Shown: positions 1-36,848 of the stretch, piece after piece
Position numbering within the stretch: the stretch's first letter is position 1
Layout: each line of letters opens with the position of its first letter
Origin: a virus
IMG/VR virus record: IMGVR_UViG_3300044710_000020
Span: 1-36,848 of that record
Strand: one strand, 5' to 3'
Length of the DNA: 36,848 nt
Program-made: the position numbers and the translations under genes
Notes under the pieces: generated by a model
Database searches by the model: none
Seen by the model: the letters and a program-made list of their open reading frames with translations, nothing else
What the model was told of the DNA's origin: nothing

Positions 1-276
1 CGCCGAGCCGACCGCCGAGCCGACCGCCGAGTCGACCGCCGAGCCGACCGCCGAGCCGACCGCCGAGTAGACCGCCGAGTAGACCGCCGAGCCGACCGCC
101 GAGCGGACCGCCGAGCGGACCGCCGAGCCGACCGCCGAGCGGACCGCCGAGCGGACCGCCGAGCCGACCGCCGAGTCGACCGCCGAGCCGACCGCCGAGT
201 AGACCGCCGAGTCGACCGCCGAGCCGACCGCCGAGTCGACCGCCGAGCCGACCGCCGAGTAGACCGCCGAGTCGAC
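1..276 (-). repeat. 12-bp tandem repeat array, 23 units, coding for X-Ser-Ala-Val
   Basis: Plus-strand unit CGCCGAGNNGAC, 23 units with no partial or deviant copy. NN is CC (10 units), TC (5), TA (4) or CG (4), giving codons GGC, GAC, TAC and CGC on the coding strand. Units 8-10 and 11-13 (85-120, 121-156) are identical 36-bp blocks. Units 14-18 and 19-23 (157-216, 217-276) are identical 60-bp blocks. The array starts exactly at base 1 on a unit boundary. The last three bases before unique sequence are at 274-276. Confidence 0.97.
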
Positions 277-537
277 CGGACGCGGCTCGCTTTGCTCGCC
301 GCGAAGAGCGCCCCTAACTTGCGTGTACACAAGGGCTGAGAGCGCGCCGGAAATGGGGCACGGCAGCCAGATGACGCGCGGCTGCTTGAGTTTGGCGAGC
401 GAGTAGAGGCCGGCGATCGCGCGCTCGCTACGTGCGCGGTCTGCTGGCTGCGTCGAGAGGCCGATCGCGGTCCATTTCGCGACGAACTCCGGGAAGCGGG
501 CCTTTTGCGCTTCCGAGATGTGAGTGATCAGGCCCAT
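1..537 (-). CDS. DUF6745-like tetrapeptide-repeat protein, N-terminal part (runs off left edge)
   Basis: The ATG at 537-535 overlaps the stop of the upstream gene (TAATG), so translation is probably coupled. The first 87 residues form a unique domain containing FVAKWTAIGLSTQPADRAR, a Tyr/Leu-rich helix and PRVIWLPCPISGALSALVY. This matches, from memory, the N-terminus of the family called DUF6745; no function is established for that family. From residue 88 the protein is 23 exact repeats X-Ser-Ala-Val up to the window edge, with no stop. The variable residues read D-Y-G-D-G twice, R-R-G twice, then Y-Y-G-G-D-G-G. The frame continues exactly into 36848-35916 if the ends are joined. No signal peptide is visible, so it is probably cytoplasmic. 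Family call is fairly sure; role unknown. Confidence 0.8.
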   Translation of the reverse strand, partial: MGLITHISEAQKARFPEFVAKWTAIGLSTQPADRARSERAIAGLYSLAKLKQPRVIWLPCPISGALSALVYTQVRGALRGEQSEPRPVDSAVYSAVGSAVDSAVGSAVDSAVYSAVGSAVDSAVGSAVRSAVRSAVGSAVRSAVRSAVGSAVYSAVYSAVGSAVGSAVDSAVGSAVGSA

Positions 538-4566: not shown

Positions 4567-4647
4567 CTACGTTATGGCAATGGCTTAACCGTGCTTTGGT
4601 TGAATCGAGGGAAGATTATGTTGCCCGACGAGGGGCAGGGCGAATGC

Positions 4648-4962
4648 CTACTTTTTGAGGCGCCGCTGAAGACTCTGCTTAGGAGCCGTCGCGCCAAGCA
4701 GTCCATCCTTAGACTCTTCGAGTAAATCCGCCACGCTGCAGCCGAGATTGCGGGCAATCGCCGCTATGGTGTCAATGGAGGGGCCGACCTTACCGTCGGC
4801 AATCCGTTGCAGGGTCGATAAGGATAGGCCGGTATCGGCGCTGATCTTCTCAAATCCATAGGTTTTGGTTTTATGGGGAAAGGCCTTGGTCAGCTCGCGC
4901 ATGAGGCCGCGGCCGAGGGTCTCGCGAGCCCTCCGTGCTTCCCAGGACACTACCTTCGGCAT
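4648..4962 (-). CDS. HTH (Cro/CI-type) repressor without a protease domain
   Basis: 104 aa from the ATG at 4962. An in-frame upstream Met at 5055 would put the operator and the divergent promoter inside the gene, so it is rejected. FEKISADTGLSLSTLQRIAD with GPSIDTIAAIARNLGCSVAD is a classic XRE helix-turn-helix with the following stabilising helices. There is no C-terminal LexA/S24-type peptidase domain, so RecA-triggered self-cleavage is not expected. It lies between two matching operator pairs, like lambda cI between OL and OR. GGGGA precedes the start. Confidence 0.8.
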   Translation of the reverse strand: MPKVVSWEARRARETLGRGLMRELTKAFPHKTKTYGFEKISADTGLSLSTLQRIADGKVGPSIDTIAAIARNLGCSVADLLEESKDGLLGATAPKQSLQRRLKK

Positions 4963-5002
4963 TTTTGGTTTCCCCACTCCGCCAAAGGTTAAATTCGAAA
5001 GA

Positions 5003-5039
5003 CGCCCATGTGCGGGTTGCGTCCACCCATAGATGGGTG
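5003..5039. promoter_or_regulatory. Right operator pair for the phage repressor
   Basis: CACCCATAGATGGGTG at 5024-5039 has perfect arms; a degenerate copy CGCCCATGTGCGGGTT sits at 5003-5018, again 21 bp away. The strong site fills the spacer of the rightward promoter and the weak one overlaps its -35 box and the upstream side, where it could affect the repressor's own promoter. Confidence 0.75.
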
Positions 5040-5045
5040 TATTTT
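5017..5045 (+). promoter_or_regulatory. Rightward early promoter (pR-like)
   Basis: TTGCGT (5017-5022), a 17-bp spacer, and TATTTT (5040-5045). The predicted start point, about 5052, almost coincides with the ATG at 5054, so the first message is probably leaderless. Confidence 0.6.
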
Positions 5046-5053
5046 CCGTGTCC

Positions 5054-5242
5054 ATGGAAGATTCGATTTACGACTATGTGATGGAGCAGCTCGAGGCGTC
5101 GAAGGGCAATTGGCCCTCGATCGCGGAGGAAGCCGGGGTGTCCCCACGGACGCTCGAAAAGATAGCTCGTCGCGAGATCATCGATCCGGGCGTCAGCCAT
5201 ATCGAAAAATTGGCCCGGTACTTCCGCGAACAAACGGTCTGA
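5054..5242 (+). CDS. Cro-like HTH protein
   Basis: 62 aa from the ATG at 5054. An upstream Met at 5033 lies inside the operator and upstream of the predicted transcription start. WPSIAEEAGVSPRTLEKIAR is a helix-turn-helix, followed by DPGVSHIEKLARYFRE, the usual third and fourth helices of small Cro/YdaS-type regulators. Divergent from the repressor across the shared right operator, so it probably competes with it during lytic development. No Shine-Dalgarno sequence is seen, in keeping with leaderless translation. Confidence 0.75.
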   Translation: MEDSIYDYVMEQLEASKGNWPSIAEEAGVSPRTLEKIARREIIDPGVSHIEKLARYFREQTV

Positions 5243-5274
5243 TTTTTTTTGACCTTGGGGATTTGAATTAATCC

Positions 5275-5496
5275 ATGAGCCTCGACCTGGTCGACCTGAA
5301 GCGGCTGAAGATCACCCCGGAAACCGCCGCTTGGCTCGAGGCCGAATCGCGAACGAGCGGTCGCACCAAGCAGGAGATCCTGCGCGAAGCGATGCACCAA
5401 CTGGCGGTCGAGAAAATTCATGCCGCAAAGGTACTGTCCGCCCTGGCCCCGGCGGAGGGAATCAGCAGGGACGCCCGGGGACGCCACCTCAAGTGA
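5275..5496 (+). CDS. Small phage regulator, ribbon-helix-helix-like
   Basis: 73 aa. LKRLKITPETAAWLEAESRT with SGRTKQEILREAMHQLAVEK is a pattern I recognise from short phage proteins between the cro and replication genes. The fold looks like a CopG/Arc-type ribbon-helix-helix, with strand 'RLKIT' then two helices. It may play a CII-like or early-gene control role, which is inference. Its stop overlaps the GTG of the DUF1376 gene (GTGA). Confidence 0.6.
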   Translation: MSLDLVDLKRLKITPETAAWLEAESRTSGRTKQEILREAMHQLAVEKIHAAKVLSALAPAEGISRDARGRHLK

Positions 5497-6134
5497 ATTA
5501 CTACGAGCACCACATCGGTGACTACCAGCGAAAGACCGCCCATCTGACCCTCGCCGAGCATGGCGCGTACATGCTGATGCTTCAGGTTTTTTACGCAACT
5601 GAGAAACCGCTGCCTGAAAACCGACAGCTTTTGTATCGAATTCTGCGCGTAAATCGTGCAGCCGATCGCAAAGCTGTTGATTCAGTTTGTGATCAGTTTT
5701 GGCAACTCACGGAAGGAGGAATTACAAATCAGCGTGCCGAGGAAGTGCTGGAGAAATATCGCAATTGGGTTGAGAAACAGAAACTTAACGGAAGCCTAGG
5801 GGGTAGGCCGCAAAAACCCAAACCAAACCCAAGCCTAACCCAAGGGTTATCTTTGGGTTTCGAAAAGCAAAACCCAAACGAAACCCAAACGAAACCCAAC
5901 GGGGGGTATCGCGCGCGCGTCCCACTTCCCACTTCCCACTTAGACTTAGATACCCACACACCTTCAGAGGCCGCGCCTAACGGCGCAGCCCGTGTGGGTG
6001 TGAAATCTAAATCGGGTTGGAAGCCTCCTAAAACCGCCGACGATTATGAGCGGGAAGAAGCAGCCCGGCGGGACGATGAGTCAGTCCGAAATTCCCATGA
6101 AGCTCAATCCCATGGAGGTCGCCGTGCAGGTTAA
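5493..6134 (+). CDS. DUF1376 replication protein (O-like)
   Basis: 213 aa from a GTG at 5493 that overlaps the previous stop. The first 90 residues (VNYYEHHIGDYQRKTAHLT, then EHGAYMLMLQVFYATEKPLP) are the DUF1376 domain, a phage domain found where lambda has its O replication initiator. After LGGRPQKPKPNPSLTQG the protein becomes Pro/Asn/Gln-rich because the DNA there carries an iteron array (5815-5899). The tail (KTADDYEREEAARR) is helical. By position it should recognise the origin inside its own gene. It overlaps the next gene in another frame. Confidence 0.75.
   Translation: MNYYEHHIGDYQRKTAHLTLAEHGAYMLMLQVFYATEKPLPENRQLLYRILRVNRAADRKAVDSVCDQFWQLTEGGITNQRAEEVLEKYRNWVEKQKLNGSLGGRPQKPKPNPSLTQGLSLGFEKQNPNETQTKPNGGYRARVPLPTSHLDLDTHTPSEAAPNGAARVGVKSKSGWKPPKTADDYEREEAARRDDESVRNSHEAQSHGGRRAG
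5815..5899. repeat. Iteron array, candidate phage replication origin
   Basis: AACCCAA occurs directly at 5815, 5826 and 5837, inverted (TTGGGTT) at 5853, and directly again at 5871, 5882 and 5893. Each triplet has an exact 11-bp period, which is not a multiple of three, so the pattern cannot come from protein repeats. Another inverted copy lies at 5765-5771. Lambda-type phages keep their origin iterons inside the O gene, the same position as here. Confidence 0.65.
5921..5941 (+). repeat. CCCACTT tandem triplication
   Basis: Three perfect copies of the 7-mer CCCACTT lie directly after the iteron array, inside the DUF1376 gene and followed by a more AT-rich stretch. It may belong to the origin region or be a slippage product. 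Confidence 0.6.
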
Positions 6135-6660
6135 TGACCTAGCCGAATTCGAGACTGTGCTCGGTAAGCTCTGCGCCGGCTTTGAGGTACCCGTCACAAA
6201 GGCACGGAAGGACGCGTATTGGACTGGGTTTCGCCAGACGCCCATGACCCAATTCGCCCGGCTCGTGGACCTCGCGCTGTCAGGATCCGCGTTTATTTCG
6301 ATGCCGACCGTGGGCGCGCTTCGAAAACTCATCCAGGAACCAGCGAGCAAATCCGCGGCACCAATCCATACCCAGCGCGGCCCAAGCCTGCAAGAGCAGC
6401 TCAGCGAGTACGTGATGCTCGCCCGCTTTCCTGCCGGCGAAGATTCGAAGTTCTCACCCGATCAGATGCGTCAGACGAGTCTTCCCTGGACGTATCTGTA
6501 TCGTGAATGGCGCGACGAGAAAGGCCACCAATCCGCCGAGTGCACCGGCGTGCTTGTACCGGCCGCGGGCAAACTCCCCGGCTTTCGCGTGACGGTTGCC
6601 GACATGCTCGGAGATCCGCCGCTGCACGATCGAGTGCTGAGGCGCCAAGCAGCCACATGA
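6046..6660 (+). CDS. Replication-associated hypothetical protein (possible helicase-loader position)
   Basis: 204 aa from 6046; an inner ATG at 6076 (MSQSEIPMKLNPMEV) is an equally good start. The first part, EFETVLGKLCAGFEVPVTKA then AYWTGFRQTPMTQFARLVDLAL and MPTVGALRKLI, resembles small phage proteins downstream of O-like genes, where P-type helicase loaders are found; the 'W...L...F...A......MP....LR' spacing is the basis. The rest has no recognised domain. It overlaps DUF1376 by about 90 nt and its TGA overlaps the next ATG. Confidence 0.5.
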   Translation: MSGKKQPGGTMSQSEIPMKLNPMEVAVQVNDLAEFETVLGKLCAGFEVPVTKARKDAYWTGFRQTPMTQFARLVDLALSGSAFISMPTVGALRKLIQEPASKSAAPIHTQRGPSLQEQLSEYVMLARFPAGEDSKFSPDQMRQTSLPWTYLYREWRDEKGHQSAECTGVLVPAAGKLPGFRVTVADMLGDPPLHDRVLRRQAAT

Positions 6661-6917
6661 ACGCCCAGTTCAAAACCATTGATGCGGAGATGTGGCTCTT
6701 GGGCCGGTTGCAACATCACTTGGCCCAAGTGTTCACCGGCGCAACCGATCCGGACGTGCGTCGCGAGCGTGTACGCCGCGCAATCATCCTTGGGGAACTT
6801 GATTCGATCATCCTCGGCAAGCGCGCCGGCGGTGGTTCTGAGACCTACGCGCAGGCCTTCGAGCGGCTCTACGGCCAACCACTTCACCCACCAAAACCTA
6901 AGGGTAAAAAACCATGA
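6657..6917 (+). CDS. Hypothetical early protein
   Basis: 86 aa from the ATG at 6657 (ATGA overlap); the frame open upstream to 6507 is shadow. MNAQFKTIDAEMWLLGRLQH begins a helical protein with ERVRRAIILGELDSIIL and a C-terminal basic Pro/Lys tail. No known family. Coupled at both ends. Confidence 0.55.
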   Translation: MNAQFKTIDAEMWLLGRLQHHLAQVFTGATDPDVRRERVRRAIILGELDSIILGKRAGGGSETYAQAFERLYGQPLHPPKPKGKKP

Positions 6918-7501
6918 AAACCTACAGCCAAGCGCCCGATGCGAGTGATTGCATCGAGAAGATCCAATCCGCACACCACGAGCATCTCGAGGACGTGACA
7001 GTCTCGGCGCTGTTCGTGTTCGACACCGAATCGAGCGATCCTGTGCTCAAGCACCAGGGATATCCCGCCGGCGCAGTCGTGCGCATCACGCCGCTCAAAG
7101 ATCGTGCCGTTGGGATTGCCGATGCCACGATCGTCATTGACCGGGCTGGATGGCTCGCGCTCTCGCAGCGCCAGCGCGATGCCCTGATCGATCATGAGCT
7201 CACGCACTTGACGCGCGTCACCGACAAGGAATCCGGCGATCCCGTGTTCGATGCGCTCGATCGGCCGAAACTTGCGATGCGCCGGCATGACCATCAGTTC
7301 GGCTGGTTCGACGAAGTTGCCCAGCGGCACGGCGAGGCAAGTCCGGAAGTGCGCCAGGCGCGTCACCTGATGGAATCCTCCGGGCAGCTGTATTTCGATT
7401 TCGAGCCGCGTGCCGAGATGTCCAACACCGGCCGGCAGATCCAGGCTACGGCCGTGAAGGCTGAGCGCAAGAAGCGTCGCGAAACCGCGCCGCTGAATTG
7501 A
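6914..7501 (+). CDS. Putative phage metallopeptidase
   Basis: 195 aa. ALIDHELTHL at residues about 90-99 holds a zincin HExxH motif (H94, E95, H98). It is preceded by a beta strand with DATIVIDRAGW and followed by RRHDHQFGWFDEVAQRHG, as in the 'putative phage metallopeptidase' family, which is linked to SprT/WLM-type proteases. Early position suggests action on host DNA-bound or regulatory proteins, but no substrate is known. ATGA overlap with the gene before. Confidence 0.75.
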   Translation: MKTYSQAPDASDCIEKIQSAHHEHLEDVTVSALFVFDTESSDPVLKHQGYPAGAVVRITPLKDRAVGIADATIVIDRAGWLALSQRQRDALIDHELTHLTRVTDKESGDPVFDALDRPKLAMRRHDHQFGWFDEVAQRHGEASPEVRQARHLMESSGQLYFDFEPRAEMSNTGRQIQATAVKAERKKRRETAPLN

Positions 7502-22115: not shown

Positions 22116-23092
22116 AGATCATCACGCGCGCGGTCCTCGATTGGGATGGCAACGTCCTCGAGGAAGAGAGCTACGAATATTGCGGCAAAGTCGCCGAGTG
22201 CAAAGACTCCGGCTCCGCGCCGCAGCCCGTTGATCCCTATCAGCAAGCCGACGCGCAATACGGCCTTGCGACAGGCACGGCCAATTACAACGCAGCGCTC
22301 AATCGTACCGGCGTTGAAAACCCGTTAGGTTCGAGCGGTTGGAATGTCACCGGTTACTCTGGCGGCGCGCCCGCTGGAAGCAGCAGCGGAGGAAGCGGTA
22401 GTTACGGCCCCTATCCCATTCCCGCTGGCTTGGGCGGAGGCATGTACGGTTTCGGCGGTGGCATGCCATCCGCCGGCGGAGGTGTTCCGAACGGCAGCGG
22501 CGCGCCGCTTTACACGCAATCGACTTCGCTTGATCCCTGGGCTAACAATCTTCTCGAAAGCCCAATCGATACCTCGCAGATTCCCGGCATGCCTGGCGGC
22601 CCATCGCTCGAGGGGAACGTTGGGCAGGCCGAGAACGCGACTTTCGCCAATGAGATGCAGCTTCTGCAGCCGCAGGAGCAACAGCAGCAGGAGCAAACGA
22701 CCGCACAGCTGGAAAATGAAGGTGCGATGCCCGGTTCCGCCGCTTACGAGTACGGCCAGAAGATGCTGGGCTTGACGCAAGGCGCGGAGAACGTGAACGC
22801 CGCAAATACTGCGGTGACAACCGGTATGGGCGAACTACCGATGCTCTATGGCCTTGGAAGCACCAGCCTGCAGAACCAGCTGGCGGAACGGAATGCACCG
22901 ATCTCGGAATTCGAGGCTCTGCAGGGCAACACCGGTGGCAACGTATCAGCTGCGACGCCGGATATATCCGGTGCCTTCGGACAGCAGTACCAAGGCGCGC
23001 TCGCTGGCTACAACGCCAACACCGCGACCAACAATGCGAACACGCAGGCCGGTGTCGGACTTGCCGCGATGCTCGCTATGCTCTTAGCGTAA
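22112..23092 (+). CDS. Internal virion / ejection-type protein
   Basis: 326 aa from a TTG at 22112 that overlaps the GNAT stop (TTGA). MKIITRAVLDWDGNVLEEES leads into a Gly/Ser/Pro-rich half (residues about 85-140), a Gln-rich segment (LLQPQEQQQQEQTTAQLENE) and an Ala/Asn-rich helical tail ending AGVGLAAMLAMLLA. Proteins of this make-up at this place in podovirus-like genomes are injected with the DNA. Call rests on composition and context. Confidence 0.55.
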   Translation: MKIITRAVLDWDGNVLEEESYEYCGKVAECKDSGSAPQPVDPYQQADAQYGLATGTANYNAALNRTGVENPLGSSGWNVTGYSGGAPAGSSSGGSGSYGPYPIPAGLGGGMYGFGGGMPSAGGGVPNGSGAPLYTQSTSLDPWANNLLESPIDTSQIPGMPGGPSLEGNVGQAENATFANEMQLLQPQEQQQQEQTTAQLENEGAMPGSAAYEYGQKMLGLTQGAENVNAANTAVTTGMGELPMLYGLGSTSLQNQLAERNAPISEFEALQGNTGGNVSAATPDISGAFGQQYQGALAGYNANTATNNANTQAGVGLAAMLAMLLA

Positions 23093-35758: not shown

Positions 35759-35919
35759 TTCGAATCCTTTTGCTCAATGGGATCGTGCGGTTTTGAGAGC
35801 TTGATGGCCGCGCGATTCTTCCTTGGCTTAGCGATAGCCTTATCCCGACGCGCGCGCCACGCTCCCCATTCCTTGCGTGGACCCAATGGTGCGCCCCCGG
35901 GATTGAGCCTGTTCTTCAC
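35755..35919 (-). CDS. Basic 54-aa protein between repeat protein and ATPase
   Basis: The GTG at 35919 overlaps the DUF6745-like stop (GTGA), and its TGA overlaps the ATPase ATG (ATGA). After the start: KNRLNPGGAPLGPRKEWGAW, then RARRDKAIAKPRKNRAAIKL and a hydrophilic end. About one third Lys/Arg, so it may bind nucleic acid. It physically links the repeat gene to the ATPase in one message. Confidence 0.6.
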   Translation of the reverse strand: MKNRLNPGGAPLGPRKEWGAWRARRDKAIAKPRKNRAAIKLSKPHDPIEQKDSK

Positions 35920-36848
35920 GACTCGAACACCGGCGCGTAATCCTGCGGCCGCTTGAACGCGAGCGATCCATCCGGCATGCGCCAGGTCGACGCCGCTGCG
36001 GCGTGGCAATCTCTCGAGGCGAGGCCGCCATAAGCCTTCGGATCAACGCGAAGCTGGTAACGCTTCGTGGTGCCATCCGGCTCCGGCGTCGAATTGAGCA
36101 GATCGACCATGACGATATCCTCATCGCCCGGCACTCCAATCCATAGCAGGCGCGCGGTGCGCAGCCCCTTGATCGGATGATCCGCCGGCAACTCCTGCAC
36201 GACCTTGGCGCCGGCGTCTTTCAGGTACCGCGCCGTACCGTAGCGATCGATCATCACGCGCCGGACCTCGGCGTTGCCTTGATCCTTGATGTCACGCACG
36301 GTGATGCGTTCGGGGTGCTCGATCACGTCCTGCGTGACCTGCACGCCGTGCCAGTGCCATAAGCCCCAGCCGGAGCCATACCCGATTGATTGGCCCGTTG
36401 CGCTGTGCAGCCGGCCGCGATCGTCTCGATTCAGCGTGGTCGGCCGCTCCACCGCGAAACACACATCATCGAGCGTCCAGAAAAATCCGCACGATTCGGT
36501 GAGATCCAGGAAGTTGCGATCGATGGAGACCGAAAAGACTTCATTGAAGTAGTCCGCCCAGGCAGAATATCCTGCTGCCCACTGCGCCCAGAAAAACGCC
36601 CGGCCGGCCTCATCCATCGCGCTCCGCAGCGCATCGGTGATCCGGAATTTTTGATCCGCCGAGCGGACCGCCGAGCCGACCGCCGAGTCGACCGCCGAGT
36701 AGACCGCCGAGCCGACCGCCGAGCGGACCGCCGAGCGGACCGCCGAGCCGACCGCCGAGCCGACCGCCGAGTCGACCGCCGAGCCGACCGCCGAGCGGAC
36801 CGCCGAGCGGACCGCCGAGCCGACCGCCGAGCCGACCGCCGAGTCGAC
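35916..36848 (-). CDS. DUF6745-like tetrapeptide-repeat protein, C-terminal part (enters from right edge)
   Basis: Reading leftward from the right edge there are 16 more X-Ser-Ala-Val repeats (D-G-G-R-R-G twice, then Y-D-G-R). A unique domain of 246 residues follows, starting DQKFRITDALRSAMDEAG. Recognisable family motifs follow in order: ERPTTLNRDDRGRLHSATG, GLWHWHGVQV, NAEVRRVMIDRYG, DLLNSTPEPDGTTKRYQL, and a C-terminus ending PQDYAPVFES. These are hallmarks of DUF6745 as I recall it. The internal Met at 36617 is not a real start, because the frame is open back through the repeats. The stop overlaps the GTG start of the next leftward gene (GTGA). With the left part, the joined protein is 489 aa (87 + 156 + 246). 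Function unknown; sited in a lysogeny-side operon, not among virion genes. Confidence 0.8.
   Translation of the reverse strand, partial: VDSAVGSAVGSAVRSAVRSAVGSAVDSAVGSAVGSAVRSAVRSAVGSAVYSAVDSAVGSAVRSADQKFRITDALRSAMDEAGRAFFWAQWAAGYSAWADYFNEVFSVSIDRNFLDLTESCGFFWTLDDVCFAVERPTTLNRDDRGRLHSATGQSIGYGSGWGLWHWHGVQVTQDVIEHPERITVRDIKDQGNAEVRRVMIDRYGTARYLKDAGAKVVQELPADHPIKGLRTARLLWIGVPGDEDIVMVDLLNSTPEPDGTTKRYQLRVDPKAYGGLASRDCHAAAASTWRMPDGSLAFKRPQDYAPVFES
36657..36848 (-). repeat. 12-bp tandem repeat array, 16 units, same register as the left-end array
   Basis: Sixteen exact units CGCCGAGNNGAC, ending on a unit boundary at the last base. NN is CC (7), CG (5), TC (3) or TA (1). A 6-unit block CG-CG-CC-CC-TC-CC at 36717-36788 is repeated at 36789-36848 minus its last unit. 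That missing unit is supplied by bases 1-12 if the ends are joined. The final 36 bp equal the first 36 bp of the window, so the true unit count across the junction is 39 or 36, or more if assembly collapsed copies. Confidence 0.97.

Follow-up and report, generated by a model that had tools for sequence, protein, structure and literature searches.

An array of 11-bp-spaced repeats inside a phage DUF1376 gene as a candidate lambda-style replication origin

A regularly spaced array of short DNA repeats in the middle of a protein-coding gene raises the question of whether it is kept for the protein or for the DNA and, if for the DNA, what it does there. Such an array is found in the IMG/VR virus record IMGVR_UViG_3300044710_000020, which was analysed over its full length of 36,848 bases (the window) and which, by Pfam and PHROG matches, carries an integrase gene; the phage is temperate. 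The array sits inside a gene of the DUF1376 family, about 320 bp past the gene start. DUF1376 genes are common in phages and prophages, where they are annotated only as unknown or as 'primosomal protein'. From sequence and comparative analyses, we propose that the array is probably a lambda-style replication origin placed inside the disordered linker of its own initiator gene. The elements concerned are the following.

5493-6134, plus strand: DUF1376 gene with a GTG start, encoding a putative replication initiator of 213 aa; the N-terminal domain of its product (about residues 1-90) is a predicted winged helix
5765-5771, minus strand: outlying inverted AACCCAA copy
5815-5843, plus strand: upstream iteron triplet, AACCCAA at 5815, 5826 and 5837, exact 11-bp step
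5853-5859, minus strand: central inverted iteron, read as TTGGGTT on the plus strand, at an identical gene position in the relatives L002 and L003
5871-5899, plus strand: downstream iteron triplet, AACCCAA at 5871, 5882 and 5893, 11-bp step, the conserved core
5900-5919, plus strand: GC-rich block CGGGGGGTATCGCGCGCGCG, which L002 and L003 share without change
5920-5941, plus strand: three 7-bp repeats TCCCACT, a candidate strand-opening or single-strand-binding element
5952-5999, no strand assigned: hairpin arms ACCCACAC / GTGTGGGT flanking the array (inverted repeat I22)
6046-6660, plus strand: downstream gene for a 204-aa protein that matches neither Pfam nor PHROG

The original prediction had described six direct AACCCAA copies in two 11-bp triplets, two inverted copies and a TCCCACT triplication, all of which were found in their places, the three TCCCACT copies at 5920-5940. 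The window contains 10 AACCCAA copies, eight of them in the array, where shuffled sequences are expected to hold 2.4 per 36.8 kb; the spaced form AACCCAA-N4-AACCCAA-N4-AACCCAA, present at two places, was absent from all shuffles. Tandem Repeats Finder reports 11 rows in the window, in which the two 11-bp rows (5814-5844 and 5870-5899) and the 7-bp row (5920-5941) are the clear cases of a period that is not a multiple of three; the remaining rows have periods of 12, 15 or 33, essentially codon multiples, one of them with 6% indels. Counted per 150 bp over the whole record, repeat pairs out of codon phase are most numerous at 5799-5948 (23 pairs; runner-up 12, mean 2). The null model for the gene itself consisted of 20,000 within-gene synonymous codon shuffles, which never reached the six AACCCAA copies (maximum five) or the four pairs at 11 bp (maximum three).

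An alternative is that the repeats have no function as DNA and arose as a side effect of a disordered N/P/T/Q/K-rich protein linker or through neutral slippage within it. The linker of the DUF1376 protein receives a low-confidence structure prediction, as if disordered, and low-complexity linkers drift easily. This explanation is nonetheless strongly disfavoured and very unlikely to be correct, since the codon shuffles never reproduce the array, neither the inverted copies nor the 7-bp and 11-bp periods track codons, and, as described below, synonymous codons are constrained, one homologue keeps the DNA in another frame and other phages retain the array after a stop codon.

The two closest relatives (L002 and L003) retain only part of the array, namely the downstream triplet, the inverted copy at 5853 and, of the upstream triplet, the copy at 5815; the other two upstream copies have degenerated there, and the outlying inverted copy (5765) is without an exact counterpart. 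Between the window and L003, codons for identical amino acids are also identical in DNA in 22 of 23 cases within the element versus 42 of 83 upstream of it (Fisher p 3e-5); between L002 and L003, the corresponding fractions are 20/21 in the element versus 43/91 (p 2e-5). The DUF1376 homologue in L448 carries AACCCATGGGGGGGTATCGCGCGCGCGTCCCACTTCCCACTTCCCA, translated as VSRARPTSHF instead of YRARVPLPTSH, and TATCGCGCGCGCG from the GC-rich block is likewise found there in the other reading frame. The downstream half of the element is almost unchanged in L448, where one extra G before TATCGCGCGCGCGTCCCACTTCCCACTTCCCA leads to the frame change. Because both the N-terminal DUF1376 domain of L448 and the C-terminal domain that it has in common with L002 and L003 are in frame, the change is not a single sequencing error. 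Synonymous conservation, the frame change in L448 and the occurrence of the array outside coding sequence in other phages strongly support the earlier suggestion that selection acts on the DNA of the array.

The gene that hosts the array matches Pfam PF07120 (DUF1376) over residues 2-86 (E 6.5e-28; 97.4 bits versus a cut-off of 30.1), and its PHROG match is 'primosomal protein'. No Pfam match other than DUF1376 was obtained for the protein, neither to lambda O nor to Rep. The AlphaFold model has the order helix-helix-helix-helix-strand-strand-helix, with a block of pLDDT 90 or more over residues 11-90. Winged-helix structures in the PDB match the model only weakly, with a best Foldseek E of 0.17 and a best Z of 6.7; among them are ORC2, plasmid Rep and DnaD N-domains at Z 4.3-6.1. 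The predicted topology fits a winged helix, and a sequence search of solved structures returned no matches. The window gene is without the C-terminal domain that is common to L002, L003 and L448, and that of L192 is also without it. As for the downstream gene, L192 and L448 each have a homologue of it behind the DUF1376 gene; the viral-contig scan yielded no relatives of the 204-aa protein, and tblastn in the fetched loci yielded two. Judged from position only, its product is a possible partner such as a helicase loader. Neither a helicase nor a polymerase gene was recognised among the scanned genes of this phage.

The original prediction had suggested a search for iterons at the same place in other DUF1376 genes, and such periodicity does recur in the linker. 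We compared 39 non-redundant DUF1376 genes with their synonymous shuffles at periods of 5-30 bp. For about 33 of the 39, the best period, located in the linker behind the domain, was 7 bp, 11 bp or a multiple of either; p<0.01 was reached by 41% of DUF1376 genes and by 3% of the 106 genes next to them that were also tested (Mann-Whitney p 1e-10). Linkers of the beta-proteobacterial branch have, as DNA, GCAATGCGAACGCAT-like iterons directly followed by (CACCAGA)n, an order that matches the AACCCAA iterons and (TCCCACT)n of the window. For instance, the linkers of L061, L070, L104 and L042, from beta-proteobacterial and related phages, contain GCAATGCGAACGCAT iterons and (CACCAGA)n heptamers that are translated as NANAMRTH...HQTPDTRHQTPDT. 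On the DUF1376 tree, AACCCAA appears across deep branches, but the rows were partly chosen by motif and the distribution was given no weight. The GCAATGCGAACGCAT-like arrays also bear on the idea that the G-rich strand, with its TTGGG repeats, acts in replication or regulation as a G-quadruplex or R-loop. The minus strand of the array has several separate GGG runs, which would suit such a structure; the equivalent arrays in other DUF1376 genes are without G-runs, so that it is not the shared mechanism, and we regard it as highly improbable.

A blind scan, in which viral contigs were searched with the 11-bp DNA motif alone, gave a second view of the gene context, which is the only independent evidence from these loci because they were selected for AACCCAA itself. 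Among the matches listed, 47 long sense ORFs host the 11-bp triple, 19 of which are DUF1376 and 24 of which match PHROG 9327 'primosomal protein'; the others, again among the matches listed, are O-like, DnaD-like, DnaB_2 and related families. Among the 48 listed matches in short ORFs or intergenic regions, a truncated initiator lies within 400 bp in 40, usually 5-8 bp off, and in 33 it is accompanied by a nearby DnaB-like helicase gene. The order at those loci is the initiator stop codon, the array 5-8 bp on and the DnaB-like helicase gene usually 120-160 bp further. These truncated initiators, with the PHROG annotation 'replication initiation protein', end in NGKKGGRPK..., and the NG-K-GGRPK motif precedes the linker in full-length genes, whereas in the intergenic group the initiator stops soon after it. 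At L159 (6340-6540) and about 33 similar loci, a truncated initiator gene has directly behind it four AACCCAA copies, an AT-rich AGATAGATAG palindrome and a GC hairpin, after which comes a DnaB-like helicase gene, and this arrangement is a probable intergenic origin of a phage group.

Motif versions with control spacings of 10 and 12 bp are also common in viral contigs, with totals that are not comparable between spacings and with 11-bp and 12-bp counts that are to be read as 'at least'. The 12-bp, codon-phase matches are, among those listed, mostly generic proline-rich repeats of the PKPEPKP type. Many 10-bp matches also occur in initiator-like genes, and 11 bp is therefore not the sole spacing in use. 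In 10-bp loci such as L353, L407 and L424, AACCCAA repeats lie behind GGRPK in initiator-like genes, and another 10-bp group translates its AACCCAA repeats as NPTQPNPTQPN. A uniform 7-bp repeat behind all AACCCAA arrays was considered and rejected; short-period repeats of several lengths are found there, those of 5-7 bp being the clearest.

Two further explanations can be weighed against this context. The array could be an operator to which the DUF1376 protein or a repressor binds, controlling transcription of its own or of downstream genes; iteron-binding initiators often autoregulate, and an operator could well have such repeats with one copy inverted. However, the array lies about 320 bp inside the gene, no sigma-70-like promoter was found at 4600-7000, the same array is elsewhere tied to replication initiator and helicase genes, and the adjoining short-period repeats are an origin-like feature, all of which makes an operator unlikely. 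It could also be a recombination junction for swapping the N- and C-terminal domains of initiators, conserved as homology, given that it sits exactly at the domain junction and that the window gene is without the C-terminal domain of L002, L003 and L448. Such a junction leaves the conserved spacing, the inverted copy and the intergenic retention beside a helicase gene unexplained, and mosaicism at this place is also expected from an origin; we consider it quite unlikely. Both account for less than an origin does.

In a nearest-neighbour stability scan, the least stable 200 bp of the whole record are 5674-5873 (z -3.7, rank 1), a stretch that overlaps the iterons, extends upstream rather than downstream and is a candidate unwinding region. 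On the other side, which carries the 7-bp repeats, GC content is 0.65 at 5900-5999. The single-strand fold of 5800-6010 has a z of -4.4. GC skew, which had been suggested as a check on the origin, lends the array no support: the cumulative skew has its minimum at 2207 and its maximum at 22926, without a change at the array, and it was discarded as an uninformative marker confounded by gene direction. No exact match to a DnaA box was found within the window; like the GC skew and the GC-rich flank, this counts against an origin here.

Taken with the replication-gene context and the recurrent DUF1376 architecture, the position of the least stable 200 bp makes an origin recognised by the product of the surrounding gene, as originally predicted, the best-supported reading. 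We propose that the DUF1376 protein may bind the 11-bp-spaced AACCCAA copies through its winged-helix domain, each helical turn taking up one molecule and all molecules lying on the same face of the helix, and the inverted copy and the hairpin might perhaps help to wrap or bend the complex. The DNA of low computed stability over the array, the C-rich 7-bp repeats or both would then open and offer single-stranded DNA, onto which the host DnaB helicase would be loaded, perhaps together with the protein from gene 6046-6660. A broader and more tentative idea, which we think may well not hold, is that many phages share a two-part replicator in which 11-bp AACCCAA-type iterons are followed by short-period, strand-biased tandem repeats, that it is retained in distantly related initiator families and in different reading frames and can leave the gene, and that the initiator reads the 5-7-bp repeats as a general element for single-strand opening, in a role comparable to that of DnaA-trios.

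An origin inside an initiator gene is a mechanism class already known from lambda, in which the central part of gene O contains iterons and an AT-rich, easily unwound tract, as also reported for its Stx-phage relatives (PMC7466680; PMC6022878). Like the lambda origin, the window has tandem iterons in the central linker of an initiator gene, constrained as DNA, and an easily unwound region adjoining them; with regard to a helicase-loader neighbour, gene 6046-6660 matches no family, and a DnaB-like helicase gene adjoins the array in the intergenic class. Unlike lambda, the initiator is a DUF1376 protein without a lambda O match in Pfam, the array has an 11-bp step, a 7-bp core and inverted copies where lambda iterons are longer (about 18 bp), GC-rich 7-bp repeats stand where lambda has its flanking AT-rich tract, and the lowest stability is upstream of and over the array. 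Iterons followed by short direct repeats as an opening region also recall iteron plasmid origins and P1 oriR, whose short repeats are heptamers. The origin in those plasmids and P1 is, however, typically outside the rep gene, whereas the window array is inside the initiator gene, and the window has no Pfam Rep match and a heptamer sequence unrelated to that of P1 oriR.

An active origin, oriJ, has been reported in the Rac prophage of E. coli (PMC3945230). The Rac ydaU gene of E. coli K-12 is, like the window gene, a DUF1376 gene with linker repeats (L450, 9612-9677), namely two direct copies and one inverted copy of TGTTCAAACA, the only exact ones in 21 kb, and it is followed by ydaV, which encodes a putative ATP-binding protein; the sequence and spacing of its iterons differ from those of the window. 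Judged by sequence, the TGTTCAAACA repeats in ydaU are a candidate core of oriJ. In the portions of the literature available to our search, no paper was found that places oriJ inside ydaU, and those on DUF1376 and ydaU do not describe an origin inside the gene. Within the same partial coverage, the extension to DUF1376, with an 11-bp and 7-bp layout that is kept when the reading frame changes or the array is relocated, appears to be new.

If the proposed origin is real, DUF1376 genes would locate the origin of many phages to within about 150 bp, the location of oriJ in the Rac prophage would be suggested, and the odd N-P-x-E-T-Q-T-K-P and H-Q-T-P-D-T-R linkers would be translated DNA repeats. 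DUF1376 genes would also provide a simple test system for DNA opening by phage initiators.

Other repeats in the record include 12-bp tandem repeats CGCCGAGCCGAC at both of its ends, at 1-278 (about 23 copies) and 36656-36848 (about 16 copies). Across the record ends, the ORFs 537..1 and 36848..35916 of the minus strand continue into each other in frame, and the record therefore looks circular, having been cut inside an array that codes for a protein with a four-residue (x-S-A-V) repeat.
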